Source: Fibrobacter succinogenes (GTDB taxonomy: Bacteria > Fibrobacterota > Fibrobacteria > Fibrobacterales > Fibrobacteraceae). From it: DNA of 47,835 bases. The translations under genes and the position numbers were made by a program. The stretch spans positions 1 to 47,835 of the forward strand of contig CACWPM010000041.1 in the NCBI GenBank assembly GCA_902762795.1. The letters run 5' to 3'. Shown piece by piece: positions 1,836 to 19,319 of the stretch (the stretch's first letter is position 1; every line of letters starts with the position of its first letter). Under the pieces are notes generated by a model. The model worked only from the letters and a program-made list of their open reading frames with translations, made no database searches and had not been told where the DNA came from.

Positions 1836-3563
1836 TTAAAGATTCACTTTATCAAGCAAGAATTCCAAAATAAAAGTCCATATATAGGTTTGTTCAAAAG
1901 AGTTATCATTTACAAGTCCATGGGCAATCCTATTCCTATAATTAAAACCTAGTTCACTATAAAAAAGCATCTTTATTTGAAAGGCTTTTTCTCGGCCTAA
2001 AACATTAACAGTTTCATTCAAATCTAAAAATTTTCCAGGACTTTTTTCAAAGTCTTCATTGGCTCGTCCTCTACCCATCACAGGAACGCCCTTTTCCTTC
2101 AAAAAATTTAATAGGATACGATCAAAATGCGGGACCATTAAATGCAATGCCGTATAAACATCCTCCTGAATTCCATATACCCATCCTTTGGCAAATGCTG
2201 ACACATTTGTCTCATTCAAATAGCTAGAGTGATTTAGCAGTTGTTCCTTAGCGCTGTCGTATGTCAGGTTACATTTTTTTGTTAATTCGTTAAAAATGGG
2301 TTCAAGACATTCAACACTCTGCTTAAACACATATGTTTGAAATTCTTTAGCAATACAATCCTTTTCAAGTAATTTTTTAGACGCATCATCCCAATTGGAG
2401 GATACAATATTGCCATTAGCATTTAAAACATTCATTGGAGAACCCGCAATAAAAGTTAAACCATTTTTCAACTCAGAACCTGCATGAATTATACTTTCAT
2501 ATGTCGTTCTTTCAAATGCGATTGATTTAAGTAAGTAGCCAAATAGCAAAGCAGGATTAAGCTTGGACAATTTTTTTTCAATAGATTTTCTTCTGTTTAA
2601 ATCAGCATACTCGCTGTGGCAATGAAATTCAATTTGCATTGCCATTCGATAAAGTTCTTCTGATTTTTTTATCATCCATTGCTCCTTGTCTTGCAATTCA
2701 GCCCGTTTGTTTTTTGACATTTTTCCAAGCAATGGAATCAACTTGTTTATTTCGCAGGCACGGACAAAAAAATCTCGTGTAATTTCCTTTTCAAAATAAG
2801 GCAATCGGTCGTTTATCAATTCTTCATAAAGTGAATCCGAAATATTTTGATTGACTAAGCCTATTTTGTCTATTGCCTTACACCAATATGTAATCAACGA
2901 AAAAGATATCCTAGGAATATAATAACGAATAACTTTTACGCAAGTATCTATCACATCAGGATGTAATTCCAAATCACTCTTTTCAAAGACTTCGATTAAA
3001 GCCCATATAAGAGGTTCCACATCATCGTTTGTTGCATTTCTGACAAATTCAAGAAATAACCCCTTTAGTTCCTCAATTCTTTTTTTTGCTCTAGTTTGAA
3101 TAAGGAAAAAGGCTCTTTGCCAAGCATCTTGCAAATACAGGTTCCAATTCTTGGAACCTATCGGCATTTTCAAATACGCATTTATTGCATTGTCAATATA
3201 AGGGCGAAACTGTTTTGTTTTACAAAATAAAATATCTGCAATCCTTGCTTTTATGTAAGGATTAATATCTTCGTTAAGCAAGGATGTTAAAAAATCCGCA
3301 TCTTTTTCATCTAAATACTCTAACCGAAAGAAATACATTGGTATGAAATCTTTCTTTTCTTTGTCAAATTCTAAAGAAAGTATATCTGCAAGCAACCATA
3401 ATATTTTACTTTTATACGGATTATCTTCTTGTTCTGCGGCTTCCTGAAACAAACAAAAGGGAAAAGACGGAGAATCGTCGCCTTTCAAAAGAATGTTGCC
3501 ATATCGCAAGCATTCTATCGAATCAATCCGATATTCAATATTTTCTAATTCATTTCTTCGCAT
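1836..3563 (-). CDS. DUF4209-like protein with C-terminal HEPN-type RNxxxHG motif
   Basis: A 575-residue, predicted soluble, mostly helical protein of AT-rich composition. Most of it is not recognised. Near the C-terminus is NYRNRIAHGLVND, which fits the conserved RNxxxHG motif of DUF4209 and also the R-x4-H pattern of HEPN RNase domains (Arg about 543, His about 548). HEPN proteins often act as RNA-cleaving toxins or abortive-infection factors, so an RNase or defence role is a reasonable guess, but nothing adjacent confirms it. The ATG at 3563 is preferred; an in-frame TTG at 3593 would add ten residues, and neither has a good ribosome-binding site. It is monocistronic, and its composition and position beside a decayed toxin locus suggest an acquired gene. 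Confidence 0.65.
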   Translation of the reverse strand: MRRNELENIEYRIDSIECLRYGNILLKGDDSPSFPFCLFQEAAEQEDNPYKSKILWLLADILSLEFDKEKKDFIPMYFFRLEYLDEKDADFLTSLLNEDINPYIKARIADILFCKTKQFRPYIDNAINAYLKMPIGSKNWNLYLQDAWQRAFFLIQTRAKKRIEELKGLFLEFVRNATNDDVEPLIWALIEVFEKSDLELHPDVIDTCVKVIRYYIPRISFSLITYWCKAIDKIGLVNQNISDSLYEELINDRLPYFEKEITRDFFVRACEINKLIPLLGKMSKNKRAELQDKEQWMIKKSEELYRMAMQIEFHCHSEYADLNRRKSIEKKLSKLNPALLFGYLLKSIAFERTTYESIIHAGSELKNGLTFIAGSPMNVLNANGNIVSSNWDDASKKLLEKDCIAKEFQTYVFKQSVECLEPIFNELTKKCNLTYDSAKEQLLNHSSYLNETNVSAFAKGWVYGIQEDVYTALHLMVPHFDRILLNFLKEKGVPVMGRGRANEDFEKSPGKFLDLNETVNVLGREKAFQIKMLFYSELGFNYRNRIAHGLVNDNSFEQTYIWTFILEFLLDKVNL

Positions 3564-3639
3564 TATTTTAAAGATAATATTCTTGCGGTTCAAAAATTTT
3601 TACAAGCAAAGAAAAACTTTTTTATTACAGCATCCGCGT

Positions 3640-3880: not shown

Positions 3881-4054
3881 ATGACAACGACAAAAAGCAT
3901 TGATTCTTACAGATTGACGGACTTGGAAGAACCGACCGATGAAATGCTTGCCCAAATTATGAGGGAAGCCGCCGAGGACGCTCGCAAAGCCAATGCCGAC
4001 GCCACCAAACGTTTTTTCGATGAAATTGAAAAGGCTGCCGCGACCATCCGTTAA
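3881..4054 (+). CDS. small antitoxin-like protein upstream of zeta-type toxin remnant
   Basis: A 57-residue charged helical protein with a strong ribosome-binding site (AAGGAG, 3870-3875). The sequence LEEPTDEMLAQIMREAAEDA followed by a Lys/Ala-rich helix resembles the short proteins that precede P-loop zeta-like toxins in other bacteria, so an antitoxin role is inferred from wording and position. The downstream toxin remnant follows directly. The protein may also have lost its C-terminal end, because the toxin's first third is missing at exactly this point. If so, this is an orphan partner of a dead toxin. Confidence 0.55.
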   Translation: MTTTKSIDSYRLTDLEEPTDEMLAQIMREAAEDARKANADATKRFFDEIEKAAATIR

Positions 4055-4460
4055 TTGCAAATCTTGGCGTGAAGAATCTTTGAAGAACCATAAAAGTCTT
4101 ATTTTTGAGTCAGTTTTTTCTTCTGATGAAAAAGTCGACTTTGTTTGCCGTGCGAAACAGCAAGGTTATTTCATCCGTTTGTTTTTTTTCGCGACCTCAC
4201 ACCCGTCCATCAATGCAGCAAGAATTGCAAAGCGAGTGATACAGGGCGGTCATGACGTCCCGATTTCCAAGATTATTTCTAGATACCAAAAGTCCATTTT
4301 CAACTGCAAGAAGATAATCCCATCGGTGGATCGTCTTTATGTTTATGACAATTCGATTGAAGATCAGGACGCTTCGCTTTTGTTTAGAATGTCGGATGGG
4401 AAATTGGTAAAGAGTTATACAAATAACATTCCTCAATGGGCGATGACGATACTCAAATAG
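4053..4460 (+). pseudogene. zeta-toxin-like P-loop kinase, N-terminally truncated remnant
   Basis: The frame encodes the C-terminal two thirds of a zeta-toxin-family protein (predicted ABC-type ATPase or UDP-sugar kinase fold). Recognisable parts are SLIFESVFSSDEKVDF, GYFIRLFFFATS, NAARIAKRVIQGGHDVP, ISRYQKSIFNC and DRLYVYDNS. The N-terminal part with the Walker A GxxGxGKS/T loop, needed for ATP binding, is absent. No start codon with a ribosome-binding site precedes the conserved region; the nearest in-frame ATG (3993) lies inside the antitoxin gene in another frame. A deletion fusing the antitoxin end to mid-toxin explains this, so the product should be inactive. Ends at TAG 4458-4460. Confidence 0.7.
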
Positions 4461-4501: not shown

Positions 4502-4534
4502 AAAAAGTCGTCCCTTGCAGGGCGACCTTTTACT
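4502..4534. terminator. bidirectional terminator between zeta remnant and GH30 gene
   Basis: A stem of GTCGTCC paired with GGGCGAC (4507-4526, one G-T pair) has A-rich sequence on its left and CTTTTAC on its right, so RNA from either strand ends in a U-rich run. It sits between two converging genes. Confidence 0.55.
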
Positions 4535-5917
4535 TATCTCAACACCACACGCTTCGTTTTTGCATTCCCGCATTTGACCATGTACACGCCGCGGCTTAAG
4601 CCTGCATTTGTCATGGCGTTGCGGAGTTCGCCGATATGTCCGGCCTGGAATTCGCCGATAAACGCGCCGATGGGGCTAAATACTTTATATGAACTTTGAA
4701 GATTTTTTTGAACAAAACGATTCCCGAAGGAAATTGCTTCTGTAGAATCTTTGGGCGGATCTACCTTGGGCTCTTGCCACAGAACGAATTCGACTGTCGT
4801 TGCACTGCGAGCCGGGGCGCTGTAGCTGCACTTTGTATCATCGACCTTGACTTCGGTTCCTTCCTTGAGGTTGTTATTGTCATCGGTAACGTAGGGTTTG
4901 AAGCTTCCAATTTTCGTGTTTCCGAAGTCAAAATCCGCCTTGAATTCCTCGTTCTTGGAATTGAGAATGACGACTGCGATTTTCGTCTTGAGGGAATCGC
5001 GGTAGGCGGTGACCTTTACATCTCTTTCGGGATTCTTGGTAGCATCGATTCTCCTCGCGCCGGGTCGCGCAAAGCGGCTGTAGTTTCCCATGACCCAGAG
5101 TCGCTTGGTGGGCTCCAGGTTGTCGGGGTTTCCTTGTCCTTGCGGCCAAAGGGCTCCGTTGCCGCAGCTGGGTTCACTGCAGGAATAAATCCACCAGAAA
5201 TGCCAGGCGTTCATATTCGAAATAGTCAGGGCATCGTGGATCATGTTTGCAACGCGGAGAGCGCTTCCCATGCCTACGTCTTCCCTATTGCTTCCGAGGT
5301 CGTAAACTTCGGTTTCCCAGAATTCTTTACCGGCTTCGTGAATTTCAGGGTAAGCAGCCGGGTCTCCGCCATATTCGTGCGTTCCAAAAATGTCCGTGTA
5401 TTTCAGAGCAGAGGGATTGTTGAAAAAGGCTTTTTTGTAATTGGGGAATCCGTACCAGTTGATGGCTTCGGTGCCAATGATTTTGATGCCCGTGGTATCG
5501 AGGGTGGGGCCAAGGTAGTCGCCTACCCAAGATGGTGTTGGCCCAGTCTTGGGCGTGATTGAAATCCAGGTGCTTTTTGTTGCCGTCGTAATTTACGGTG
5601 TATCTGGAAGTCCATGGGGCTGCCCAGACTTTGACGCCGTATTCACTCGCCTTTTTGGCGATGCTTGTTTCGGAGGTGGAGCCGTCCGGAGCAATACGGA
5701 TACGGTGCAGCGTAAGCCCCGCGCCGCTAGTGGAATCCCAAAGGAAGGCGGCGTTCTTGTCGGTGATGGAGCCCGCCCATGCCGATGCGGCACCAAAGCC
5801 GCTGATGCGTTGATATTCCTTGCCCATGTCAACGTTTATCGTTACTGCACTGGCAAGGGTGCTCAAAAATGCGATGGATCCCGCAAAAAGAGAAAATTCC
5901 TTCATTGAAAACGTCAT
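4534..5917 (-). pseudogene. GH30-family glycoside hydrolase (glucuronoxylanase-like) with internal out-of-frame deletion
   Basis: Read together, two frames form one secreted GH30 enzyme related to XynC-type glucuronoxylanases. The start at 5917 has a GGGAGG site five bases upstream and gives a signal peptide (MKEFSLFAGSIAFLSTLASA). The first frame carries YQRISGFGAASAW and WAAPWTSRYTVNYDG and runs through the DWANTI segment at about 5535. The reading frame then shifts, and the second frame gives GDYLGPTLDTTGIKIIGTEA, DIFGTHEYGGD, the KEFWETEVYD nucleophile region (Glu), HFWWIYSCSE and VRPG-like PGARRIDATKNPE. The segment that should hold the acid/base NEP motif (about 30-45 residues) is missing at the joint. 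The C-terminus (YMVKCGNAKTKRVVLR) looks like a type IX-like sorting domain. As written it cannot make active enzyme. Confidence 0.75.
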
Positions 5918-6188
5918 AAAGCCTCCCATACTAACTTTGCTTATCATAAAATAAGTTGGAAAATTCACTTTTTTGGGGGCCAAATTCAAATTCGTTTTGA
6001 TAAAATGACAACGATAAAGGCTTTATGGAGTCATAATCGCTTTTTTCGCAAAGAATTTGCGATTTTGTCAAAAATATTTCCTTGCCGCCATCGAAGAGTG
6101 CGAAAAACTGGCGAACGGCGAACCACTTGACCTAGGTATGTTGATTATCATCGAACACTAGGAAAAGGATCACTAGAGTAAAAAATCT
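5918..6188. other. intergenic region with possible gene remnant
   Basis: No complete gene is seen. On the plus strand 6072-6161 reads KYFLAAIEECEKLANGEP, then DLGMLIIIEH and a TAG stop. This looks like the C-terminal end of a real helical protein but has no start codon or ribosome-binding site, so it may be the tail of a deleted gene. The remainder is AT-rich and holds the promoter region of the GH30 gene. Confidence 0.3.
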
Positions 6189-6866
6189 TTATTTTTTGTC
6201 CTGCGGGACGAGTCTATCGACAATGCGGAATAAATCGTTATAGATTTCAAGGAAGTCTTCAATCCAAATCGGATCGTGCTCGCCCACGATGTGGAACGTT
6301 TCCTCAAGAGTATGGAGCGAATTGTACAAGCCTACCATAGAACGTGCCGGTTGTACAAAGCCCTTGCTATATGCAGATGTTGCAACAACACGAGCACGAT
6401 AACTTCTACGCAGGCGGGCGATTAACGCACTACGAAGCGCCAAAAGTTCATCATGCGCCACAAGATATTCGCCTTTTTGAATCCAGCTTTCCACAAGATT
6501 CAAACGGCGATTGATGGAATCGCGCTCCGTCGATGGAACAAGCATTTTCTTCGCTTCAAGTGTCGAACGAATCCGTCCGACAATTTTATTCAAAAGCTCG
6601 GCATTCCAAAAAATCATCGGTGGACGTACATCGCCCTTATTCTTTTCAAGAAGTGGCTTGTGAGCTTGTATCCAACGCTCCAATTTCTGAGCGACTAAAG
6701 ATGCTTCCGGGAAGCGGTCTACGGCCACATATTCCTGGGCTCGCTCGTAAAGCGTATCCGCATAAATCATCCGCCAATGCGATAATTTGCCGCTTTTGCG
6801 AATGGCATCAATACTCTGCTTAATATCAGAGAGTTTTTCAGAAAGAACTGTATCCATGAGAGCCAT
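6189..6866 (-). CDS. unrecognised helical protein, last gene of ZorAB-like operon
   Basis: A 225-residue protein with no signal peptide or membrane segment, so probably cytoplasmic. It is predicted to be almost entirely alpha-helical and rich in Arg, Leu and Glu (LERWIQAHKPLLEKNKGD, LNLVESWIQKGEYLVAHDEL, ARLRRSYRARVVATS, ending in VDRLVPQDKK). No family was recognised. Its ATG overlaps the TAA of the OmpA-like gene by one base (TAATG), so translation is coupled. A cytoplasmic partner of the stator's long tail is a plausible role, inferred from context only. It does not resemble ZorC, ZorD or ZorE as far as can be judged by eye: no helicase, HNH or other nuclease motif is visible. Confidence 0.8.
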   Translation of the reverse strand: MALMDTVLSEKLSDIKQSIDAIRKSGKLSHWRMIYADTLYERAQEYVAVDRFPEASLVAQKLERWIQAHKPLLEKNKGDVRPPMIFWNAELLNKIVGRIRSTLEAKKMLVPSTERDSINRRLNLVESWIQKGEYLVAHDELLALRSALIARLRRSYRARVVATSAYSKGFVQPARSMVGLYNSLHTLEETFHIVGEHDPIWIEDFLEIYNDLFRIVDRLVPQDKK

Positions 6867-7531
6867 TATCGAGTCACCTCAACTTTGGCCGTTTCTTTTT
6901 CACCGTTATTGGACTGGAGCGGTGTCACACCGATTTCCACACGACGGTTCAAGCGGCGATGTTCTTCACTATCATTTGGGTATTTTGGACGGTGTTCGCC
7001 AAAGCCTGCGGCAAAAAGCCTATCGGGCGGGAAACCCATTTTCACTAGCATCTTGACTACATTCACAGCTCGTTCAGTAGACAAGTTCCAGTTAGTATAA
7101 GTTTTGGACTTCACGGGCGTATCATCCGTAAATCCGCTAACCATGATGACATCCGTAGAATCAAGAGCTTCCAAAAGCCCCTTACTGATGCCACGAATCA
7201 CGCCCTCGCCTTCCTTGGTGAGGTTGGCTCCGTTAATCGGGAACAGGAAACTCGCCTGGATCTGGATTTTACCATCTTCAAGCGCGATAAGTCCCGCCTC
7301 GATAGATGTCTGCAAGCTCTTGGACAAAAGCGCATTGCGTTCTGCCGCAATTTTACGCATTTCTTCCTGGCACGAGAGGACTTCTTCTTCGGTTCGCGTC
7401 AGGTCTTCGGCCTTCTGCTCCTTGAGGGTCGCCATCGCCACAAACGCAAGGATAAAGAGCGAAACGAGGGCCACGCCCAAGTCCGTGTACGCCATCCAAG
7501 GATTGCTATTTTCGTCTCTATTGCGACGCAT
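6866..7531 (-). CDS. MotB/ZorB-like membrane protein with OmpA-type peptidoglycan-binding domain
   Basis: A 221-residue protein with the layout of MotB and ZorB: a short cytoplasmic N-terminus, one transmembrane helix at about residues 14-36, a linker with a coiled-coil segment (EEEVLSCQEEMRKIAAERNA), and a C-terminal OmpA/MotB domain at about 95-205. The helix begins NPWMAYTDLGVALVSLF; Asp17 is in the position of the proton-carrying Asp of MotB-type stators. The OmpA domain shows VSGFTDDTPV, NLSTERAVNVVKML, AAGFGEHRP and NRRVEIGVTP, fitting peptidoglycan binding. It lies two bases after the MotA-like gene and overlaps the next by one base. It should act as the periplasmic anchor and proton-channel partner of the product of 7534-9378. 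Confidence 0.9.
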   Translation of the reverse strand: MRRNRDENSNPWMAYTDLGVALVSLFILAFVAMATLKEQKAEDLTRTEEEVLSCQEEMRKIAAERNALLSKSLQTSIEAGLIALEDGKIQIQASFLFPINGANLTKEGEGVIRGISKGLLEALDSTDVIMVSGFTDDTPVKSKTYTNWNLSTERAVNVVKMLVKMGFPPDRLFAAGFGEHRPKYPNDSEEHRRLNRRVEIGVTPLQSNNGEKETAKVEVTR

Positions 7532-7533
7532 AG

Positions 7534-9378
7534 TTAACCTTCGACCTTAGATTGTGCAGGGATTGCGGAACGTTGGGTTTGTTCAAGGACTTCGAGCAAG
7601 ATTTCCTGAGTCTTGACTGCATTTTCCATGAGCACTTCGCTCGCGCGTTCGTGGAAGGCTTCGAGAGACTGGTTCAAGTGTTCGACAAAGTTGTCTTCTT
7701 CTTCGTGTTCAGCCGTATCGCCCGAGAGCTTTTCGAGGATTGTCTCGAGGCCACTGCGAAGCATTTCGAGGTTTGCGCTGAGTTCGGACTGGTTCACGCG
7801 CATAAGCTCTGCGGTTTCCACAATGTTTCCGCCAAGAGCGTCCGTGGCTTCTTTTTCCTTGACCACGCGATTGTCGATGCTTTCGGTGAGAGCCTTTTGC
7901 GCCTCGAGAAGCACGTTCGATGTTTCGGAAAGCTTTTGGAAAGCGCCGAGAATATCGGAAGAAAGGGAGCCAAGCTTTTCGGAGACATTCTGGGAAAGTT
8001 CTGCAGAACCCGCCTGAGCCTTTTCGGCCACTTGGAGAGCCACGTTCTTGAGCGTTTCGAGGCCTTCGCGCTGGGAATCGACATTTGCCGTTGTCTTGTC
8101 TTCAAGACGTTGCATAAAGCTATTCCACTGTTCGCTAGACTGCTTAACTTGTTCAGAAACGGAATCGGCGATGCTTTTCGTTGATCCTTCCATAGCCGTT
8201 GCGGTTGCGGTAGCCACGCCATCCAGGCCAGCCTTTACGTCAGAAGCGACCTTTGCAAGAGCCGTTTCCACATTACCCGAAACGCCTTCGAGCGAAGACT
8301 TGACTCCAGAAGAAATCCCTTCAAGCCCAGTATTCAAGGCAACCGAAATGCCGTTCAGCTTTTCATCCAGCTTTGCAGGGAGCGCTTCGACCGATTTCGA
8401 AAGAGAACCGATATTTTCGTTAATCGGATTGAATGCGTTCGAAACCGAAGCTCCCACCAGTTCACCAAACTTCTGGGAAGATTCGTTCATATTGGCAACG
8501 GCACCCGCAAGAGAATCGTTCACAGCCTTGATCGATGAAGTCATTTCGCTTGAAACATTACGAACAGACGCAACAACATCTTGATTGAGCTTGGATGTCA
8601 TTGCAGAAAGTTCCTCTCCCACCATTGCAACAACTCCTGCAAGACCATCCTTCACCGAAGAAGCAATTACGGACAAGTTTTTTTCAACAGAATCAAACAA
8701 ACGTTCAAGTTCATTCTTGTCTTTTTCAACAGCGCCTTTTTCGGTTTCCGCTTCCTGCATATCAAGCGTAAAAGCGTCAAGATGAGCCATAAATTCATCA
8801 CGCCTGGAACTGAGCACCGTGCGGCTAGTCCCCAAAATCAAGGCTGCAAACAAACCGCAAAGGCTCGTACCGAAAATGCCTTTCATGTTCTGGAAAAGCA
8901 CCTGGATTGTATCGAGCGTGCCCTGTGTCGTGGAATTGTCAATGGCACCACCAGCTGTCGCCACCGATTGCATAAGGCCAAAGAACGTACCCATTAGGCC
9001 AAGAAGAATGACGGTCGAACCAACACTGCGGTTGAGCGGAATGGAAGAACCGGACGAAAGGACTTCGAAAGCAATCGGGGAATCCAACCGAATGTTTTTT
9101 TGCAGGAGACGCTTTGCTAGTTCAATTCGCTTCGCTACAACGCCCTCATCCAATTCGGGATAAACGTTCTCCTTTTCGCAAGCGTCGATGATATCGTCTT
9201 CGGCGATAATCTGCTTCATCTTGCGTATCGCAGAAATCTGTTCGACCAGGTAAACGGCCATAATGGCGATCATGATGATCCAGCCAAATGCGGGAGCGCC
9301 AAAGTAAAGTGCGCCAGCAATAAGGGTCACAAAACCCACCACCGTCAAAATAAGAATCGTTTTAAATGCTTTTTTCAT
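7534..9378 (-). CDS. MotA/TolQ/ExbB-type proton channel subunit with long coiled-coil tail (ZorA-like)
   Basis: A 614-residue inner-membrane stator subunit. Transmembrane helices are expected at about 8-24, 30-48, 118-140 and 166-186. The last two carry the family's signature wording, TVILLGLMGTFFGLMQSV and KGIFGTSLCGLFAALILG. A cytoplasmic segment lies between helices 2 and 3. After about residue 200 comes a tail of some 415 residues, rich in Ala, Ser, Glu, Leu and Val with heptad-like repeats (GLEGISSGVKSSLEGVSG, VASDVKAGLDGVA), predicted to form a long coiled coil. This is the architecture of ZorA of Zorya anti-phage systems and far longer than ExbB, TolQ or MotA. It pairs with the MotB-like gene two bases downstream. 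Proton-driven rotation is inferred from the family. Confidence 0.9.
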   Translation of the reverse strand: MKKAFKTILILTVVGFVTLIAGALYFGAPAFGWIIMIAIMAVYLVEQISAIRKMKQIIAEDDIIDACEKENVYPELDEGVVAKRIELAKRLLQKNIRLDSPIAFEVLSSGSSIPLNRSVGSTVILLGLMGTFFGLMQSVATAGGAIDNSTTQGTLDTIQVLFQNMKGIFGTSLCGLFAALILGTSRTVLSSRRDEFMAHLDAFTLDMQEAETEKGAVEKDKNELERLFDSVEKNLSVIASSVKDGLAGVVAMVGEELSAMTSKLNQDVVASVRNVSSEMTSSIKAVNDSLAGAVANMNESSQKFGELVGASVSNAFNPINENIGSLSKSVEALPAKLDEKLNGISVALNTGLEGISSGVKSSLEGVSGNVETALAKVASDVKAGLDGVATATATAMEGSTKSIADSVSEQVKQSSEQWNSFMQRLEDKTTANVDSQREGLETLKNVALQVAEKAQAGSAELSQNVSEKLGSLSSDILGAFQKLSETSNVLLEAQKALTESIDNRVVKEKEATDALGGNIVETAELMRVNQSELSANLEMLRSGLETILEKLSGDTAEHEEEDNFVEHLNQSLEAFHERASEVLMENAVKTQEILLEVLEQTQRSAIPAQSKVEG

Positions 9379-9385
9379 TTTTTAC

Positions 9386-10303
9386 CTACACATTCTGCGC
9401 TTGATAAGGAGCGACTGTTTCAAACAAATTTAATTGACCGCGAGAGAACCCGCGAAGGAATAAAGACCATTTACTTTGGTACCATTCGATAATCTGCATC
9501 GTAAGCCCTTGTGCATAATCGCAAAAGTCATCCGTAAACGCCAAAAAACAGTTTTCGTAAGCATAATGCGGATTCCAAAAGCGACCGACATTCCTTGCGC
9601 AAGACATCGCGGACGAATAATAGCGCACAGGGCCTTTCGAAGAAAACGCTGCAGCAAAACGTTTCTTGGCAAGCGAGTTCAAGGACGTGCGGAGCGAGAC
9701 GACCATCGCGTTTTCCTTTTCGCGCAAGGACGCTTCCAGGCATGGCAAAAGCTTCGATACAGGATCCACAGCACTTTCGGAAAGCCAGTACTTGCAAAGT
9801 TTTTCCTGCAACTGCATCACGCGACCGTGCATACGCACAAACAAAGGTTCAGCATCGCTCACCAACAAATGTATTGTCGCCGAATAGAAATTGTTGATAT
9901 CCTGCTTGTTGTTCTTGACAGTAAGCGCCCAACCTTTTTCTTCGTCATGGACCAAAAAATCCCCGCCTTCAAGCAAAAGACGGAGAACCTCATCCGTCGC
10001 AAAACGCTGGATCCACTTGGCACGGAACTCGCTGTAAAGCTTTTCGCAATCTTTAAATATCTGCGGGAAACCCGATTCACAAAGTTTCCAGGCCGATTCG
10101 CTAAACGAAATGAGCTCGGAGCAGCCGACATTCGCCGACGGGTTGTTGAGCATAGCGTCGAGATGTTCAAAAAGAGCTATTGACCACGTGACCATCATGG
10201 ACTGCGAGAGCGTAGCAACGATTGCCGATCGGTTAGGACGAACGGCCAGGCGCACGCTAGCGCCGGTCATCTTGCGTATGGCTCTACGAAATGCTTCTTC
10301 CAC
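9386..10303 (-). CDS. unrecognised protein preceding the ZorA-like gene
   Basis: A 305-residue protein without signal peptide or membrane helix, probably cytoplasmic. It is helical with scattered Cys and aromatic residues (WKLCESGFPQIFKDCEKLY, YYSSAMSCARNVGRFWNP, WYQSKWSLFLRGFSRGQLN). No domain was recognised and no catalytic motif is obvious. The start is GTG at 10303, chosen because AGAGGT lies at the right distance and the upstream gene ends only nine bases before. It ends seven bases before the ZorA-like gene, so both are surely cotranscribed. It may be a cytoplasmic partner of the ZorA-like tail; that is inference from position. Confidence 0.8.
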   Translation of the reverse strand: MEEAFRRAIRKMTGASVRLAVRPNRSAIVATLSQSMMVTWSIALFEHLDAMLNNPSANVGCSELISFSESAWKLCESGFPQIFKDCEKLYSEFRAKWIQRFATDEVLRLLLEGGDFLVHDEEKGWALTVKNNKQDINNFYSATIHLLVSDAEPLFVRMHGRVMQLQEKLCKYWLSESAVDPVSKLLPCLEASLREKENAMVVSLRTSLNSLAKKRFAAAFSSKGPVRYYSSAMSCARNVGRFWNPHYAYENCFLAFTDDFCDYAQGLTMQIIEWYQSKWSLFLRGFSRGQLNLFETVAPYQAQNV

Positions 10304-10312
10304 GGCTACCTC

Positions 10313-11035
10313 TTAGAAACGCGCTTCGATGTTGTGCCACACGTTGCGACGGACACGTTTTTTGGTGAGTTTCAAGTCAGCGTCTTCACTGCGGATATCG
10401 GATTCGAGGTTGTTGCGAATCAAGTCCGTATCGCCATCGAGCTTGCCACCCGATTCGAGATAAAGTCCGTAAACGTTTTCAGAAATGCTGGTTCCGTTCG
10501 AAACAACGCGACCGGCCCTCACAGATAAAGCATAGCGGTTATGAGCCAAAGTGCAACGAACTAAAGTGACATCAGGACTTTCATCGACCCAGAGACCGTA
10601 ATAATTATTGAAAAAGCTGACATTTTCAAGCGTACCATGGGAACGGAAAATCGTATTGCGGAAGGCGTTTTCAATTGTCAAATTATGAATACTGAAAGGG
10701 CGTTCGCTCGACATGATGTGAAACCCGTTCCAGTTCGCTACGGAATCGGCACCGCAAAAGACAACTGGCTTATCGTTTGTACCTGCTATTTTAACGGTTC
10801 CCTGGATGATAAGTTTTGCAAACTCCCCCATCAAGACCGTCACACCAGGTTCAATGACCAGCGTATCGGACGCACCGACAACCACACCCTGTTCGAGCAC
10901 ATAAGGACTATCTTTTTCTTTTAAAAGCACCTTGCCATTTTCCACAACAGGAAACGGCATTCCCGAAGCAAACGAAGAACAAGCAAATACAAGAACCGTC
11001 AAAATCGAGGAACGCATAAAATTTTTACAAATCAT
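10313..11035 (-). CDS. secreted right-handed beta-helix protein
   Basis: A 240-residue exported protein. The N-terminus has a signal peptide (MRSSILTVLVFACSSFASG from the internal Met7), and the body has the short repeating rungs of a parallel beta-helix: LVIEPGVTVLMGEFAKLIIQ, VKIAGTNDKPVVF, FSIHNLTIENAFRNTIFRS, LENVSFFNNYYGLWVDES, VTLVRCTLAHNRYALSV and SISENVYGLYLES. Such folds bind or cut polysaccharides or act as scaffolds; no catalytic set can be named. Its ATG overlaps the TGA of the lipoprotein gene (ATGA), so the two are translationally coupled. Expected location is periplasm or cell surface. Its presence in the same operon as a stator pair suggests the system reaches across the envelope. 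Confidence 0.8.
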   Translation of the reverse strand: MICKNFMRSSILTVLVFACSSFASGMPFPVVENGKVLLKEKDSPYVLEQGVVVGASDTLVIEPGVTVLMGEFAKLIIQGTVKIAGTNDKPVVFCGADSVANWNGFHIMSSERPFSIHNLTIENAFRNTIFRSHGTLENVSFFNNYYGLWVDESPDVTLVRCTLAHNRYALSVRAGRVVSNGTSISENVYGLYLESGGKLDGDTDLIRNNLESDIRSEDADLKLTKKRVRRNVWHNIEARF

Positions 11036-11871
11036 TGCATGTTCCTCAACGTGATTTTCTGATTGACATTCAAACTCGGGAGAGTGTCACCAGCGACAAG
11101 ATCACGCACATCGAGAACGGCAACAATATTCATTTCCGCAGACGAAATCGTTCCATGTGTCACATCAAAAAGAACCACGCCATCCCCTACGACATAATCG
11201 CTACTTTTGAGCTGCAAATTCGAGGTCGTGTCCGGGAGTTCCAAATACTTCATGCCCATGTGGATTTTAACCATACGGGCACCATCCTGCAAATAGACGT
11301 CTTGGAGCGTGAACGTCTTGTAAACCGTCGTCGAGCTATTGCCCTTGCCAAAGATCGGCATCTGGCGTTCCCAGGTTTCGCCAAGTTTCACAGGCTTTTC
11401 GGGCAAGAGCGGTTGCGCCTTGAGGAAAAGCGGAAGCAAGTTCAGTTCGTCCTCGGAAGGCAAGTCCACGGCATTTTCAATCGTCGGATCCGTGATAATT
11501 CCATCGTGATGGAGCTTGAACTGAAAATTTTGAATGGAAAGATATTTTTCAATATTGCGGAACTCGTCAACGGAACGCTTATCGCTCGTATAATCGACAG
11601 AATCGATTTTCATTTCGAAACGTCCAGAACCATCGTCGTATGACATAAGAAGACTCATCGTACTGCGGACACTCACGTGCGTGCGCATAGATTCAGGAAC
11701 ATTCACAGAATCGCCCGGCAAGCTCACGTTCAACGTAGATTCAAGAACATACGACTGCGGGGCTACAGTCTGCGTGTTAAAAGCAAGATGAATTTCGTTC
11801 CGTTCGCAGGAGCAAAGAGTCAATAAAGCAATTGAAAGCGCCGAAAAAGCGCCAAACTTGATAAAATTCAT
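11032..11871 (-). CDS. lipoprotein of unknown function, first gene of ZorAB-like operon
   Basis: A 279-residue lipoprotein. The signal peptide ends in a lipobox within ALLTLCSCERNEI (lipidated Cys about residue 21 or 23). The mature part is beta-rich and free of membrane helices, with VPESMRTHVSVRSTMSLLMS, FEMKIDSVDYTSDKRSVDEF, KPVKLGETWERQMPIFGKG and TISSAEMNIVAVLDVRDL. The phrase around KLGETW resembles DUF6263-like lipoproteins, but this is a weak impression. It begins the six-gene operon; the next gene overlaps it by four bases. AT-rich DNA upstream (11872-11900) probably holds the operon promoter. Placement in the outer or inner membrane cannot be decided from the sequence. Confidence 0.75.
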   Translation of the reverse strand: MNFIKFGAFSALSIALLTLCSCERNEIHLAFNTQTVAPQSYVLESTLNVSLPGDSVNVPESMRTHVSVRSTMSLLMSYDDGSGRFEMKIDSVDYTSDKRSVDEFRNIEKYLSIQNFQFKLHHDGIITDPTIENAVDLPSEDELNLLPLFLKAQPLLPEKPVKLGETWERQMPIFGKGNSSTTVYKTFTLQDVYLQDGARMVKIHMGMKYLELPDTTSNLQLKSSDYVVGDGVVLFDVTHGTISSAEMNIVAVLDVRDLVAGDTLPSLNVNQKITLRNMQ

Positions 11872-13107: not shown

Positions 13108-13722
13108 CTACCAATTAGACTTATTTGAATTGCTGATTTCTTCAAGATTTTTCAATTTTTGCTCGTATTCGGCTTCCTGTTTCGAGGTATCTTTTCCTTC
13201 GCGTCTTTCACGCCCCACTTTCAAAGCAATGTCAAAAAGTTCATCCGCAGAAAATTGAGATTCTTCCGATGAAATCAAACTACCGGTTTCTTCGAAATTT
13301 TTCACCTTTTGTTCGTATTCGGCTTGCAATTCAGAAGTATTCATCCCTTCCCGCTTTTCCTTGCCAATTTTCAAAGCCATATCGAAAAGGTCACCCGCAT
13401 TATCACTAGCTTCACCTGGCGAAACTTCCCAAGGCGGAGCATGTTTTCCAAAAGACCTCCCCAGAAAAACAATTGGAAGCTCTATAAGCCAAACCAATAG
13501 CGTAATTCCAAGCCAGTTAAAGATATTAGGCAAATTTATATAACAGTACGCTTTTTCACCGATAAAGAACTCAAAAAAAAGTATAACTCCAAAAACAGGG
13601 AAAGAGCCTAACCAAACAATCCACTTAAGATTGTCCCGTTCAACAAATTTCTTTGTTTTAAGCAGAAAGGGAAGAAGAATATAAATCAAGTATATCCAAA
13701 AAAGCGACCACATAGTCATCAC
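13108..13722 (-). CDS. membrane protein with duplicated cytoplasmic helical repeat
   Basis: A 204-residue protein. The N-terminal half has three hydrophobic segments (about residues 5-21, 33-53, 68-90). The C-terminal half has two near-identical copies of a segment of about 40 residues: LFDMALKIGKEKREGMNTSE... and LFDIALKVGRERREGKDTSK..., each ending EYEQKxKNxEE. The duplication is recent enough that most positions still agree. No known family was recognised. Its ATG overlaps the TGA of the radical SAM gene (ATGA), so the two are translationally coupled and probably work together. Confidence 0.7.
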   Translation of the reverse strand: MMTMWSLFWIYLIYILLPFLLKTKKFVERDNLKWIVWLGSFPVFGVILFFEFFIGEKAYCYINLPNIFNWLGITLLVWLIELPIVFLGRSFGKHAPPWEVSPGEASDNAGDLFDMALKIGKEKREGMNTSELQAEYEQKVKNFEETGSLISSEESQFSADELFDIALKVGRERREGKDTSKQEAEYEQKLKNLEEISNSNKSNW

Positions 13723-14711
13723 TTAATTCCGCGGCCGTACGCGCAGTAGCTATCTTCCTGCATGTAGTCGCCGTCGTGGTAGTAAGCGGCACGGGCGCGG
13801 CAACCGCCGCAGCGGTCATTGAACTTGCACTTGCCGCAAGCTCCAGCATAAGCCTTGGTGCGGAGTCTCTTGAACACCTCGGCGTTCGCCCAGATTTCGT
13901 CGAACGGCGTATCGTGAACGTCGCCCGCTTCTTCCATCATGTAAGCGCAGGGGCGCACCTTGCCGATCGGGCTTACGATGCAGTAGTCAAGGCCAGCAAG
14001 GCAACCGCGGCTGTAACGCGTCTTGATGTCGAGCTGGTCGGCAATGCGGAGGAACTGCGGAGCGCAAGTCGGTTTCACCGGGATTCCAAGCGTGCGGCTC
14101 TTTTCCATAATCTTGCGCAACAGGCCTTCGTATTCGGCAACGCGGAGCGCATGGCCTTCGATTTCCTTGCCACGGCCCACCGGGATGAGGAAGAAAATCT
14201 GGTGGTTCACGGCACCGATTTCCTTGACCCAGTCCATGATGTCAAAAATCTCGTTCTGGTTCCAGTCCATAATCGTTGTGTGAATTTGGAACGGGAGGCC
14301 TGCCGCCTTGCAGTTTTCGATGCCCATCAATGTGAGTTCAAAAGCATTCGGGAGGCCTCGGAAATCGTTATGGCGTTTGGGATCGATGCTATCGACGCTG
14401 ATGCCCATTGCCATCGCCCCCGCTTCCTTGAGCTTGAACGCCAAATCGTGCGTGATGAGCGTTCCGTTCGTGCCAAACACCGGGCGGAGTCCACGTTCGC
14501 GGGCATGGGCCACAAGTTCCACGATATCCGGGCGCGTCATCGGCTCGCCACCGCTGAAAATCATGATCTTGAATCCGGCCTTGGCAATCTCGTCGATGAG
14601 CTTGAGCGCTTCGGCAGTCGTGAGTTCAGCAGACTTGTTTTCGCCTGCGTCCTGATAGCAGTGTTTGCATGTCAAGTTACACTTATTCGTTGTCATCCAA
14701 GAGACGATCAT
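13719..14711 (-). CDS. radical SAM/SPASM-domain protein (NirJ2-like)
   Basis: A 330-residue radical S-adenosylmethionine enzyme. The cluster motif is CNLTCKHCY (Cys11, 15, 18), followed by FSGGEPMTRPDI for SAM binding. The C-terminus is a SPASM-type domain with extra cluster cysteines: CLAGLDYC, GKVRPCAYM, CGKCKFNDRCGGCRA and a last Cys in EDSYC. The N-terminal wording (MIVSWMTTNKCNLTCKHCY) resembles the NirJ2/AhbC-AhbD group of heme and heme d1 enzymes, but SPASM proteins also modify peptides, so the substrate is open. No heme genes or obvious precursor peptide lie beside it. The next gene starts within its stop codon. Upstream DNA (14712-14885) holds a repeat and the neighbouring gene's terminator. 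Confidence 0.8.
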   Translation of the reverse strand: MIVSWMTTNKCNLTCKHCYQDAGENKSAELTTAEALKLIDEIAKAGFKIMIFSGGEPMTRPDIVELVAHARERGLRPVFGTNGTLITHDLAFKLKEAGAMAMGISVDSIDPKRHNDFRGLPNAFELTLMGIENCKAAGLPFQIHTTIMDWNQNEIFDIMDWVKEIGAVNHQIFFLIPVGRGKEIEGHALRVAEYEGLLRKIMEKSRTLGIPVKPTCAPQFLRIADQLDIKTRYSRGCLAGLDYCIVSPIGKVRPCAYMMEEAGDVHDTPFDEIWANAEVFKRLRTKAYAGACGKCKFNDRCGGCRARAAYYHDGDYMQEDSYCAYGRGIK

Positions 14712-14777
14712 GCCATAGACCTCATAAAAAATATTGCGCCATCAAAAAAGTATCTGTAGTCAATACCGTGTATGGCG

Positions 14778-14798
14778 ATCCCCGAACAAGTCGGGGAT
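14778..14798. repeat. dispersed repeat copy, hairpin ATCCCCGA/TCGGGGAT
   Basis: Perfect 8-bp arms (14778-14785 and 14791-14798) around ACAAG, followed by GACAT. It is a member of the GGATCC/GTCATCC-type family. Confidence 0.5.
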
Positions 14799-14811
14799 GA
14801 CATCGCAAATA

Positions 14812-14839
14812 TAGAAAATGCCCGGCCTAGAAGCCGAGC
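14812..14839 (-). terminator. terminator of small lipoprotein gene
   Basis: On the minus strand GCTCGGC, TTCTAG loop region and GCCGGGC form a stem that includes one G-U pair, followed by ATTTTCTAT. It lies about 45 bases after the stop codon of the gene at 14886-15257. Confidence 0.5.
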
Positions 14840-14885
14840 AAATCAAAACGACAACCGTATTAATGAATAACGATTGAAAGAACCC

Positions 14886-15257
14886 TTAGTTAAGACTATT
14901 CAACAGCTGTTCGCAAGCGTCCTTAGCAGAGGATTCGTCGTAAGCATAGATGGTGACGGGAACGCCATCTATAAGCATGTTTTCACATGTCTTCTTAGCT
15001 CCACCCGGGCAACCAGAACCCGTGACAGCGCTGGCAATGTCTTCTTGTTCGGCATCCTTAATATCAGCCATTTCTTCGCGGCAATAATTGGATATGTAGG
15101 ACTGTTCCTTGGAGTCGATGCACAAATGGCGAGGAATCTCCCAGAAAACAGAGTTCATATCGCAGGAGGTGACTTTTTCATCTTCAGAAGTCGAAACTTC
15201 ACACCCTGTAAAAATGGTAGCCACCACAACCATGGAAGCAAGAATCATTTTTTTCAT
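14886..15257 (-). CDS. small cysteine-rich lipoprotein
   Basis: A 123-residue lipoprotein with a standard signal and lipobox (ATIFTGC, Cys about residue 19). The mature part has seven further cysteines (CDMNSVFWEIPRHLC, YCREEM, SGCPGGAKKTC, KDACEQLL), likely forming disulfides in the periplasm. No family was recognised. The start has AAAGGGAT upstream. It is a single-gene unit with its own terminator. Confidence 0.75.
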   Translation of the reverse strand: MKKMILASMVVVATIFTGCEVSTSEDEKVTSCDMNSVFWEIPRHLCIDSKEQSYISNYCREEMADIKDAEQEDIASAVTGSGCPGGAKKTCENMLIDGVPVTIYAYDESSAKDACEQLLNSLN

Positions 15258-15380
15258 AGTTTTATCCCTTTTTACTTTAATTAAAAGATAAAATAAAAAA
15301 AGGAAATTAGCCAGTGTCCCCCCAAAAATGCTATCTTAATACAGAAATCATTCAATTTTAAACAAAAAACTTGTAAAAAT

Positions 15381-16631
15381 ATGAACAGAAGAAGAGTCGT
15401 TATTACCGGTATGGGTGCAGTGACCCCCGTTGGCAAGTCCGCCCCCGAACTTTGGGCATCCATCAAGCAAGGCAAGTGCGGCATCGCCCCCATCACTTTG
15501 TTCGATGCATCCAACTGCCCCGTGAAAATCGCCGCAGAAGTCAAGGATTTCAAGCCCGAAGAACACGGAATCGACCCGAAGGAAGCCCGCCGCATGGCCC
15601 GCTTCACGCAGTTCCTCGTCGCCGCCGCGAACGAAGCCGTCAAGGACGCTAGCCTCAGCCGCGAAATGCTCGCCGAAGACACCACTGGCATTGTTGCCGG
15701 TAACGGTCTTGCCGGTATGGACGTCGTCGAAGAAACATATTGCAAGTATCTCGAAGGTGGCCGCCGCCGTGTTTCGCCGCTCGCCATGCCCGAACTGATT
15801 GCAAACGAAGCCTGTGCCAACGTCTCCATCGCCCTTGGAATCACGGGTTCCGCATGGACAGTCTGCACCGCCTGTGCCTCCGGCACGGACGCCATCGGCG
15901 TAGCCCTCGACGCCGTCCGCTCGGGCAGGCTTGACGTCTGCCTCGCCGGCGGTTCCGAAAGCGCCATCACGGACTACTCCATCAAGAGCTTTGCGGGCAT
16001 GCACGCCCTCACCGACAAGTTCAACGACGCCCCGGAAAAGGCTTCCCGCCCGTTCGACAAGGACCGCAGTGGTTTCGTCATGGGTGAAGCTGGCGCCATC
16101 CTCGTGCTCGAAGAACTCGAACACGCCAAGGCCCGCGGTGCAAAGATTTACGCTGAAGTCGCCGGTTACGGATCTTCTGCCGACGCGTACCACATCACAA
16201 GCCCGCGCCCGGGTGGAGAAACCTGCGCGAAAGCCATGGTCAAGGCATTGAAAGATGCGGGCATCGCCCCGATGGATGTGGACTACTACAATGCCCACGG
16301 CACCTCGACGCACCTGAACGACCTCACCGAAACGCAAATGCTAAAAATTGCGCTCGGCGAACACGCCTACAAGATCAAGGTCTCTAGCACCAAGAGCATG
16401 ACCGGCCACTGCGTCGGTGCAGCTGGCGTTATCGAAGCGATGATCAGCACACTCGCCATCCGCGATTCGTTCTACCCCGCGACAATAAACCTCGACAACC
16501 CGGACGAAGGCTGCGACCTCGACTACGTTCCGCACAAGGGCATCGAAGGGAACATCAACGTCGCCGTGTCTGCCTCGCTTGGCTTTGGCGGTCACAACGG
16601 CATTGTCGTAATCAAGAAATTTAAAGACTAA
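15381..16631 (+). CDS. fabF: beta-ketoacyl-ACP synthase II (FabF-like)
   Basis: A 416-residue condensing enzyme that extends acyl-ACP with malonyl-ACP. The catalytic triad is complete: Cys165 in TACASG, His306 in NAHGTST and His343 in KSMTGHCVGAAG, with Lys338. The opening VVITGMGAVTPVG and closing SLGFGGHNG are typical of FabF. No acyl carrier protein gene lies next to it, unlike many housekeeping fabF genes; instead it heads an operon with a small membrane protein, a DUF2334 protein and an acyl-CoA synthetase. It may therefore serve a special lipid or simply be the housekeeping enzyme. No clear ribosome-binding site is visible upstream; the sequence there is A/T-rich. Confidence 0.88.
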   Translation: MNRRRVVITGMGAVTPVGKSAPELWASIKQGKCGIAPITLFDASNCPVKIAAEVKDFKPEEHGIDPKEARRMARFTQFLVAAANEAVKDASLSREMLAEDTTGIVAGNGLAGMDVVEETYCKYLEGGRRRVSPLAMPELIANEACANVSIALGITGSAWTVCTACASGTDAIGVALDAVRSGRLDVCLAGGSESAITDYSIKSFAGMHALTDKFNDAPEKASRPFDKDRSGFVMGEAGAILVLEELEHAKARGAKIYAEVAGYGSSADAYHITSPRPGGETCAKAMVKALKDAGIAPMDVDYYNAHGTSTHLNDLTETQMLKIALGEHAYKIKVSSTKSMTGHCVGAAGVIEAMISTLAIRDSFYPATINLDNPDEGCDLDYVPHKGIEGNINVAVSASLGFGGHNGIVVIKKFKD

Positions 16632-16646
16632 ACAAAGGAGTGCGCT

Positions 16647-16778
16647 ATGTCTGATTGGCTTTTCAAATCTTGGATAAAGGTTTCTATCTGCAGTGCTGTG
16701 CTGTTCTTCTTCTATCATCTATTCATCTCGCAAAAGCTTGAAGAAGAAATCGACACTAAATCCAAGGAAAACGAGTAG
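16647..16778 (+). CDS. 43-residue single-pass membrane protein
   Basis: A short gene with an AAAGGAG ribosome-binding site six bases before its ATG. The protein has one hydrophobic helix (VSICSAVLFFFYHLFI) and an acidic/lysine tail (KLEEEIDTKSKENE). It starts 15 bases after fabF and ends three bases before the DUF2334 gene, so it is part of that operon. Function is unknown; a membrane tether or small subunit is possible. Confidence 0.7.
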   Translation: MSDWLFKSWIKVSICSAVLFFFYHLFISQKLEEEIDTKSKENE

Positions 16779-16781
16779 CTT

Positions 16782-17552
16782 ATGGAACAGAATAAAGATA
16801 TAGCCGACATCCAAGCGGCCGAAGCGACCATCCAAAAGAAAAAAAAGTTCATTCTCTGCTACCATAGCTTTAGCGTGAACAATTTCAAGAAGGCTTCCAT
16901 CCAGATTAGAAAACTTGCTGAAGCGGCAGGCTCCCCCATCAGTATTGCCGTTATCCCAGCATTCGGTGCAGCCCCGGAATCCGAAGCCGAACAATTCCGC
17001 GAAGAAATCGAAAAATTTGTCAAGGAAGGCTACGAAATCATGCTTCACGGTGCACGTCACCGCGCGGACCTGTCGCTCCAACGAAGCATTTCGGGCAAAC
17101 TTGCGCTTCTCGTTTCGAATAACGAAGCAGAATTTGCAGGCATCGACGAACGCTTTACGCAGGCCCTTCTCAAGAGGAGTCTTGCGCTTTGGAAAGCTCA
17201 CGGCAATGGAAAGCCGTCCGGATTCATTCCACCGGTTTGGTTTGGAAACAAGTTCCTCAAGGAACAGGCTCTCGCCATTTTCGATTACTACGAAGATTTC
17301 CACGGCATTTACCAAAAGGTGAAAGGAAATATCAAGAAGACCCGTTCAGCGACACTCAGCTTTTCCATTTTGCCTACGGCACTCCTTGGAATAGCGCAAA
17401 CTTACGCCTGCCTCAAAATGCTCTTGCCAGGCGGAGTCCATCGTTTGGTATTCCACGATAAAGACTTTAGAACGATTGGCGAAAAGCGCATTTTGAACAT
17501 GGTGCGCTACATTTCCACCATGCGTGAAAAAATCATGTACAAGGACCTGTAA
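16782..17552 (+). CDS. DUF2334-type polysaccharide deacetylase-like protein
   Basis: A 256-residue protein matching the DUF2334 branch of the polysaccharide deacetylase (NodB) fold. Visible features are LCYHSFS near the N-terminus, ISIAVIPAFG, and GYEIMLHGARHR, whose His residues resemble the metal-binding HxxxH of deacetylases. A later GFIPPVWF segment is also family-like. There is no signal peptide, so it is probably cytoplasmic or membrane-associated through its hydrophobic segment LPTALLGIAQTYACL. A role in deacylating or deacetylating a sugar lipid would fit the neighbouring ketosynthase and ligase, but this is inference. Confidence 0.7.
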   Translation: MEQNKDIADIQAAEATIQKKKKFILCYHSFSVNNFKKASIQIRKLAEAAGSPISIAVIPAFGAAPESEAEQFREEIEKFVKEGYEIMLHGARHRADLSLQRSISGKLALLVSNNEAEFAGIDERFTQALLKRSLALWKAHGNGKPSGFIPPVWFGNKFLKEQALAIFDYYEDFHGIYQKVKGNIKKTRSATLSFSILPTALLGIAQTYACLKMLLPGGVHRLVFHDKDFRTIGEKRILNMVRYISTMREKIMYKDL

Positions 17553-17570
17553 TTCTAGGACTTCGCATAA

Positions 17571-19319
17571 ATGATTTTAAACAAGTTCTTATCTAAAATT
17601 GAGTACAAGTCTTACGATGACTTGTATAAAAACTTCAAGATATCCATTCCGGACAACTTTAATTTTGCATACGATGTCGTTGACGAATACGCAAAAACAG
17701 AACCCAAGCGCGAAGCTCTCGTGTGGTGCGACGACAACGACGAAGACCACATTTTTACGTTCAAGGATTTATCGCAAGCCTCCCAGCGCACGGCGAATTT
17801 CTTGGTAGAACAGGGAATCCGAAAAGGCGACCGCGTGATGCTTATTTTGCGCCGTCGCTATGAATTCTGGTTTTTCTTGCTTGCGCTGCACCGCATTGGC
17901 GCGATTGCAATCCCGGCAACAAACATGCTCGCCGCCGAAGACTTGGAATACCGTTTCAATGCCGCCGAAATCAAGATGGTCGTGACTTACGACGATCCGG
18001 CATTGCAAAAAGAAGTGGACAAGGCGAAATCAAAATGCAATTCCGTTGAAAAACTAGTGACCATCGGTCAAACGGCTCGTCAAAACTGGATAAGCTTCTA
18101 CAACGATTACGAAATTTATCCCGCAACATTCGAACGCCCCGTTGGCGATGAAGCAACGCATAACGACGACATCATGATCGTCTATTTCACGAGCGGCACT
18201 AGCTCAAACCCCAAAATGGTGGCACACACTTATACGTACCCGCTCGGACACATCGTGACCGCCAAATACTGGCAGCACGTCGTTGACGGAGGTCGACATT
18301 TGACCGTCGCCGAAACGGGCTGGGCCAAGGCTCTCTGGGGTAAAATTTACGGGCAATGGATTGCTGGGAGTGCCGTTTTCACGTACGACATGACCACGTT
18401 CATTCCGGGCAAGCTCCTCGAAAAAATGGCAGAATACAAGGTGACGACGTTCTGTGCGCCGCCGACCGTTTACCGCTACATTTTGCAGCACGGCATCGGC
18501 AAATACGATCTGTCGAACCTCAAGTATTGCACCACCGCAGGCGAATCGTTGAACCTGGATATTTACAACAAGTTCTTCGAGCAGACGGGCATCCGTATGC
18601 AGGAAGGTTACGGACAGACCGAACTCACGCTTACCACGGGCAACTTCGGCTTTAGCGAACCGCACCCGGGTTCAATGGGCAAGCCCTCCCCCGGCTACCG
18701 TATGGAAATCGTGAACACAGAAGGCAAGCCCTGCGCCGCTGATGAAGTCGGTGAACTCATCATCAAGATTGACCAGGGCAAGCCTTTCGGCATGTTCGGC
18801 GGGTACTACCGCGATGCTGAACGCACCGAGAAAGTCTTTGAAGGAGGCGTGTATCATACTGGCGATACCGCTTACCGCGACAAGGACGGTTTTTTCTGGT
18901 TCGTGGGCCGCACCGACGACCTCATCAAGAGTTCCGGCTACCGCATCAGCCCCTTCGAAGTAGAAGAAGTGCTGCACAAGCACCCGGCCGTCTTGGAAGT
19001 CGCTGTCACGGGCGTCGAAGACAAGTCTCGCGGTCAAGCCGTCAAGGCAACGGTCGTCTTGCAGAAAGGCTACGAAGCCTCCAAGGAACTCGCGAAGGAA
19101 ATCCAGCTTTTTGCAAAGAACATTGCCGCAAGCTACAAGAGCCCGCGTATCATCGACTTTGTGACGGAACTGCCAAAGACCATCAGCGGTAAAATCCGCC
19201 GCGCGACAATACGAGATAAAGATGCCGCCGAAGCTTCGGCAAGCTCACCAACCGTAGATGCGCCGAACGAAACACCCGAAAAAAATATAGCGAACACGGC
19301 AAGTGACGCTGAAAAATAG
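17571..19319 (+). CDS. AMP-binding acyl-CoA synthetase
   Basis: A 582-residue member of the ANL superfamily that activates a carboxylic acid as acyl-AMP and transfers it to CoA. Core motifs are in order: YFTSGTSSNPKMV (A3), TTAGESLNL, EGYGQTELT (A5), YHTGDTAY (A7), GRTDDLIKSSGYRISPFEVE (A8) and ELPKTISGKIRR with the catalytic Lys (A10). The overall wording is closest to acetyl- or medium-chain acyl-CoA synthetases. The last 35 residues are a low-complexity tail. It starts 18 bases after the DUF2334 gene and ends the operon before a strong terminator. The substrate cannot be read from the sequence. Confidence 0.88.
   Translation: MILNKFLSKIEYKSYDDLYKNFKISIPDNFNFAYDVVDEYAKTEPKREALVWCDDNDEDHIFTFKDLSQASQRTANFLVEQGIRKGDRVMLILRRRYEFWFFLLALHRIGAIAIPATNMLAAEDLEYRFNAAEIKMVVTYDDPALQKEVDKAKSKCNSVEKLVTIGQTARQNWISFYNDYEIYPATFERPVGDEATHNDDIMIVYFTSGTSSNPKMVAHTYTYPLGHIVTAKYWQHVVDGGRHLTVAETGWAKALWGKIYGQWIAGSAVFTYDMTTFIPGKLLEKMAEYKVTTFCAPPTVYRYILQHGIGKYDLSNLKYCTTAGESLNLDIYNKFFEQTGIRMQEGYGQTELTLTTGNFGFSEPHPGSMGKPSPGYRMEIVNTEGKPCAADEVGELIIKIDQGKPFGMFGGYYRDAERTEKVFEGGVYHTGDTAYRDKDGFFWFVGRTDDLIKSSGYRISPFEVEEVLHKHPAVLEVAVTGVEDKSRGQAVKATVVLQKGYEASKELAKEIQLFAKNIAASYKSPRIIDFVTELPKTISGKIRRATIRDKDAAEASASSPTVDAPNETPEKNIANTASDAEK

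Follow-up and report, generated by a model that had tools for sequence, protein, structure and literature searches.

Zorya Type III and Other Ion-Driven Motors

The Zorya systems are centred on the ZorAB pair. In types I and II, the ZorA5B2 complex is an ion-driven motor, ZorB binds peptidoglycan, and defence requires wall binding, ion flow, and the ZorA tail (PMC11890865); these two types also have either ZorC and ZorD or ZorE. In Zorya type III, by definition, the ZorAB pair has a DUF3348 protein on one side and a DUF2894 protein on the other (PMC8565338; PMC11890865). A type III system from Stenotrophomonas lowered the plating of at least one phage in Escherichia coli (PMC8565338), and the defence label of the whole type rests on this heterologous expression of one example. 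The accessible part of the literature on DUF3348, DUF802, and DUF2894 reports no role for them outside of defence. It should be noted that the names of the flanking proteins are interchanged between sources: entries PDLC00652-PDLC00658 of PADLOC-DB label DUF3348 as ZorG and DUF2894 as ZorF, while PMC8565338 has DUF3348 as ZorF and DUF2894 as ZorG. The Tol-Pal, ExbBD-TonB, and MotAB stators likewise combine a MotA/TolQ/ExbB-type subunit with a MotB-type partner.

A Six-Gene Operon in Fibrobacter succinogenes

The stretch of F. succinogenes DNA analysed here (the window, 47,835 nucleotides) carries six close-packed genes, A to F, on its minus strand between positions 6189 and 11871. Gene A (11032-11871) encodes a DUF6263-like lipoprotein of 279 aa; gene B (10313-11035), a secreted right-handed beta-helix protein of 240 aa; gene C (9386-10303, GTG start), a helical soluble protein of 305 aa in the position of DUF3348; gene D (7534-9378), a ZorA3/DUF802-like, MotA-type channel subunit of 614 aa that includes a tail of about 415 residues; gene E (6866-7531), a ZorB3-like MotB/OmpA protein of 221 aa with the channel Asp at residue 17; and gene F (6189-6866), a helical soluble protein of 225 aa in the position of DUF2894. 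A and B overlap by 4 bases, gaps of 9, 7, and 2 bases separate B from C, C from D, and D from E, and E and F overlap by 1 base. A preliminary description of this DNA had listed six such genes, and all six open reading frames, their spacing, and their domain content have been confirmed.

That description had also asked whether the genes stay together in relatives. The grouping goes beyond chance, as the complete order A-B-C-D-E-F is present in 10 of the 12 other Fibrobacteraceae loci that could be read with their context; of the remaining two, one (L037) ends at a contig edge after D, and the other (L039, genus g2) does not have B.

The Motor Genes D and E

The match of D to the Pfam MotA_ExbB family is weak, but a hydropathy scan finds four clear transmembrane (TM) segments ahead of the long tail. 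E has an OmpA domain (Pfam, 1e-16) and, in the same type of scan, a single TM helix that starts at Asp17. PADLOC assigns E to ZorB3 (3.5e-43) and D to ZorA3 (1.5e-14), which bears out the earlier proposal of a ZorAB-type stator. When Fibrobacterota profiles were aligned with proteobacterial ones using hhalign, E matched the OmpA (ZorB) family with a probability of 100 (E-value 2.8e-53) and D matched DUF802 with a probability of 98.7 (E-value 4.6e-16). The channel block of D that spans TM3 and TM4 (8779-9060, about residues 107-200) is sufficient to match DUF802 by itself (E-value 9.4e-10), with the motifs GLMGTFFGL and FGTSLCGL aligned. The conserved C-terminal tip of D (7534-7845, about the last 100 residues), on the other hand, scores 20.3 against the DUF802 tip, which is not above the shuffle null of 20.5. 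Asp17 of E is invariant in comparison with Burkholderiales ZorB, conserved residues of the OmpA domain are also kept, and the channel Thr motifs are retained in D/E. On these sequence comparisons, D and E are certain homologues of ZorA3 and ZorB3. Sequence matches in the PDB are mostly PomB/MotB for E and only marginal TolQ for D. In published proteomics of F. succinogenes, FSU_0151 was considered as the E protein and rejected; its mass fits, but its pI is 6.65 versus about 5.4 for E orthologues.

Among plasmids and chromids, the closest homologues of E are found in Burkholderiales and Rhodocyclales, and the five annotated loci of this kind that were inspected carry DUF3348, DUF802, OmpA family, DUF2894. 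In a scan of one genome per species, the nearest relatives of E outside of the phylum are mostly beta- and gammaproteobacterial loci; these (L065-L117) have all four genes in the order DUF3348-zorA-zorB-DUF2894 wherever the contig reaches. The E homologues of these loci score 113-143 bits, versus at most 94 bits for those in other contexts.

The order C-D-E-F in the window is this same proteobacterial order, DUF3348-DUF802(ZorA)-OmpA(ZorB)-DUF2894. The likeness to Zorya type III also extends to motor homology, the channel Asp, the OmpA-domain residues, the long ZorA tail, the presence of two helical cytoplasmic partners, and a core single-copy status within genera. Thus, the machine cannot be called undescribed, as had been suggested, since its gene order and the homology of D and E match a published system, and the operon is very probably akin to Zorya type III. 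It nevertheless departs from that system in that C and F fall below detection by Pfam and PADLOC, that it has two extra exported genes, and that motor-less derivatives occur in Fibrobacterota. Furthermore, the window system is known from its genes, whereas a phage effect has been described for the Stenotrophomonas example.

The other motors are less similar. Like Zorya types I and II, the operon has a ZorAB-type motor with a long cytoplasmic tail; unlike them, it is not patchy and has no ZorC, ZorD helicase, or ZorE nickase, and PADLOC gives no match for A, B, C, or F. The resemblance to Tol-Pal, ExbBD-TonB, and MotAB leads one to expect an ion-driven 5:2 motor, but in contrast to those stators the MotA-type subunit here bears the tail of about 415 residues and has no flagellar context. 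No TolA/TonB arm, TolB, Pal, or ExbD-type partner appears among the family matches of A, B, C, and F.

The Soluble Partners C and F

Searches of Pfam, NCBIfam, and PADLOC give no credible family match for C or F, and the family models detect no nuclease, helicase, or other effector domain in either; a PADLOC scan of their deeper relatives likewise yields nothing credible. C and F look new because the PADLOC and Pfam models, those of DUF3348 and DUF2894 included, miss them. The PADLOC models recognise the proteobacterial proteins in the C and F positions at 1e-93 and 1e-79, so it is divergence or non-homology, and not a missing model, that explains the lack of matches for C and F.

Profile comparisons support homology well for F and suggestively for C. 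The profile-profile score of F with DUF2894 is 30.4, while 51 decoy families attain at most 22.4 and all of 200 shuffles stay below 30.4; hhalign gives a moderate probability of 31-45% (E-value 2e-4 to 5e-4). The aligned region is a C-terminal motif, GLYNS...DPIWIEDFLE in F and GPLNS...SPEYLNRF in DUF2894, and by this motif F is probably a remote DUF2894 homologue. For C and DUF3348, the score is 26.2 versus a maximum of 22.9 for the 51 decoys, again with none of 200 shuffles reaching it, but the hhalign probability is low, at 6.7%. In AF2 models, C (pLDDT 57.6, a low-confidence model from four sequences) and a DUF3348 protein (pLDDT 88.1) have three short helices, a longer helix, and long helices in the same order, as judged by eye from secondary-structure strings, with a beta-hairpin inserted in C. 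The profile scores and the gene position are suggestive of C being a remote homologue of DUF3348. A known fold was sought for DUF3348 itself and set aside; the listed PDB matches are helical bundles of low similarity, with a best Foldseek E of 0.16 and a best VIA Z of 6.9.

An alternative, in line with the preliminary description, is a separate machine that arose when a ZorAB-like stator combined independently with two proteins specific to Fibrobacterota; C and F would then have no relationship to DUF3348 and DUF2894. The silence of the three databases and the hhalign probability of just 6.7% for C would fit such an origin. Yet C and F share relative position, size range, and helical make-up with DUF3348 and DUF2894, both profile scores exceed those of all decoys and shuffles, the order of helices agrees in the two AF2 models (by eye, and with low confidence for C), and the intervening D and E are clear homologues. 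An independent joining is improbable. The previous view that the operon has no Zorya effectors appears mistaken or overstated, given that C and F occupy the DUF3348 and DUF2894 positions and are probably remote homologues. A match of the soluble proteins to known Zorya components, which had been named as evidence against a new machine, is largely found for F and suggestively for C. The operon is best termed type III-like, since C and F are at most probable members of the two families.

The Exported Proteins A and B

The two exported partners proposed earlier, a lipoprotein and a beta-helix protein, are borne out by a lipobox-like signal, LTLCSC, in A and by a Pfam Beta_helix match (2e-7) in B. 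A also scores 25.2 bits against the Pfam family DUF6263, below its cut-off of 26.7. A precedes C in Fibrobacteraceae and also in g14, a genus of family f3; B is confined to Fibrobacteraceae and is missing in genus g2, and neither A nor B is detected upstream of C in family f2. A and B together are Fibrobacteraceae additions to the type III-like set, a feature reported here for the first time. From their membership in the operon, both may be coupled to the motor.

Relatives That Have No Motor

Genera g7 and g11, of the same family as F. succinogenes, and the families f3, f4, and f5 have loci with a D-like protein (D') between C and F; it is a rod that is held in the membrane by one or two TM anchors and ends in the conserved tip of D. 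Both the channel block and a neighbouring MotB are absent from these loci, and a genome-wide search for E in the motor-less genomes gives weak matches of a generic OmpA/MotB kind or none. These motor-less forms are newly described here. The tip is the only part of the D tail kept in all motor-less relatives, and TM3-TM4 is missing from them. The rods of D' in g7/g11 (L050, L052, L053) have repeated stretches of the PKIEIP/PKIEVP type between the TM anchor and the tip. Most f3 loci and the f5 locus have a fixed C-D'-F neighbourhood, with RluD upstream (where the contig reaches) and HolA, ArgJ, and GlyA downstream. In g14, the gene immediately before A-C-D'-F, on the same strand, is Ser/Thr kinase-like (L045, L046, L047, L049, L063, L064) and is a possible regulatory input.

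In an unrooted tree of C, whose support is moderate, g7 and g11 fall among stator-bearing taxa, and the stator-bearing family f2 is sister to f1. The position of g7 and g11 implies at least one loss of the stator; in f3-f5, its absence may be ancestral or stem from a second loss. If it is ancestral, the original Fibrobacterota device would have been a motor-less, membrane-anchored scaffold of C, D', and F, and the Fibrobacteraceae/f2 line would have gained its stator afterwards, when a ZorA channel block was fused on and E was acquired. This is consistent with the absence of the stator from all sampled f3-f5 genomes and would need just two changes on the unrooted tree. However, Proteobacteria have the full four-gene set in the same order, which makes loss the simpler explanation, and one loss is required in g7/g11 anyway. 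A later gain of the stator is unlikely.

A Model for the Operon

The preferred reading, to which a probability of roughly 0.6 is assigned, is that the operon encodes a divergent Zorya-type-III-like machine, a vertically inherited core operon whose wall-anchored stator acts via C and F in an envelope function. By homology to Zorya I and II, D and E should behave as an ion-driven, wall-binding motor. They would form a 5:2 stator clamped to the cell wall by E, with the five D tails gathered into a single rod in the cytoplasm; C and F would attach to its conserved tip. Under envelope stress or remodelling, E would engage the wall, ions would flow, and C and F would then receive torque or a change of conformation through the rod. 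Since C, the D tip, and F are constant where the motor has been lost, the working end would consist of C and F attached to the tip, and the motor would be a drive that can be dispensed with; the balance of evidence tilts somewhat toward their sitting at this tip. In Fibrobacteraceae, A and B would lie across the membrane, on the periplasmic or outer side, as a sensor or target in the outer envelope.

The relatives that keep everything other than the motor suggest a basic cell-envelope job. The primary job might then be envelope maintenance or stress sensing, with phage protection as a consequence, and a primary role in the envelope rather than in defence is slightly favoured. The envelope process proposed in the preliminary description is plausible as an inferred function, and the kinship to type III is firm. 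A wider proposal is more tentative and is given somewhat less than even odds: Zorya type III in general would be an ancient, vertically inherited envelope machine and not primarily a defence system, with a DUF3348-like/DUF2894-like complex on the rod tip as its working part, which several Fibrobacterota kept after motor loss. The natural motor-less variants indicate which part of the ZorA tail is likely to be required by C and F, and they bear on how Zorya tails pass on a signal.

Core Status and the Question of Defence

C is present in 106 of the 151 genomes of the phylum sample and, within the genus, as a single copy in 64 of 67 genomes, the three exceptions being only 65-88% complete. The gene tadA lies directly upstream of the operon in 10 of the 12 Fibrobacteraceae loci. 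Within the genus, conservation is 86-88% for E, 81-85% for tadA, and 78-81% for C; across the family, the values are 62-78%, 68-79%, and 42-59%, respectively. E is about as conserved as tadA, and C is similar within the genus and less conserved across the family. The operon is inherited vertically and forms a core locus present in one copy, a status not previously described. The proteobacterial systems also lack patchiness within genera: DUF3348 is found in 64 of 65 Burkholderia genomes and in 77 of 81 from Stenotrophomonas. By contrast, ZorC (EH_Signature), the marker of Zorya I, is found in 3 of the 65 Burkholderia genomes. Across the Burkholderia order, DUF3348 is present in just 4 of 120 sampled genomes. 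Type III is patchy between lineages and fixed within these genera, unlike typical defence genes. As a control in the same genus as the window, HsdR varies from 0 to 6 copies and is found in 33 of 35 good genomes, so that its contrast with the operon is one of copy number only and it is a weaker control for patchiness than had been hoped.

Because a published type III system reduced the plating of phage in E. coli (PMC8565338), defence keeps a share of the probability. The operon would then be a true defence system, a Zorya type III that has become fixed in the core genome; ZorAB, anchored in the wall, would detect the entry of phage, and the response would be carried out or regulated by C and F. 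Besides that plating result, the requirement of Zorya I/II defence for wall binding, ion flow, and the tail (PMC11890865) and the match of D, E, and the gene order to type III speak for it. Against it, nearly every genome of the genus has the operon, once and at a fixed locus, and the type III genes of Burkholderia and Stenotrophomonas are just as fixed; the evolution of E is as slow as that of tadA; the motor-less derivatives persist; and neither C nor F shows a nuclease, helicase, or other effector domain. Nor were any defence genes found beside the operon in the window, and the idea of a defence-island location finds no support. A primary defence function is rather unlikely, and an envelope function is preferred. 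Three unrelated genera have these genes near-universally and in single copy, so that the defence label of type III can be put to the test.

Surroundings of the Operon

The genes adjacent to the operon in the window are tadA and a GH30-like gene. The latter comprises two consecutive minus-strand open reading frames downstream of the operon, one with a GH30 beta-sandwich domain (4534-5271) and one that reads like the N-terminal part of the same protein (5345-5989); the gene (4534-5989) looks frameshifted or broken. Farther along, a plus-strand frame (3993-4460) has a weak Zeta_toxin match slightly below cut-off, and a minus-strand gene (1836-3593) encodes a protein of 585 aa with DUF7380 and DUF4209 domains. 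On the other side of the operon, genes for a Radical SAM/SPASM protein, a ketoacyl synthase, and an AMP-binding enzyme lie near one another (13719-19319) and possibly constitute a small biosynthetic cluster.
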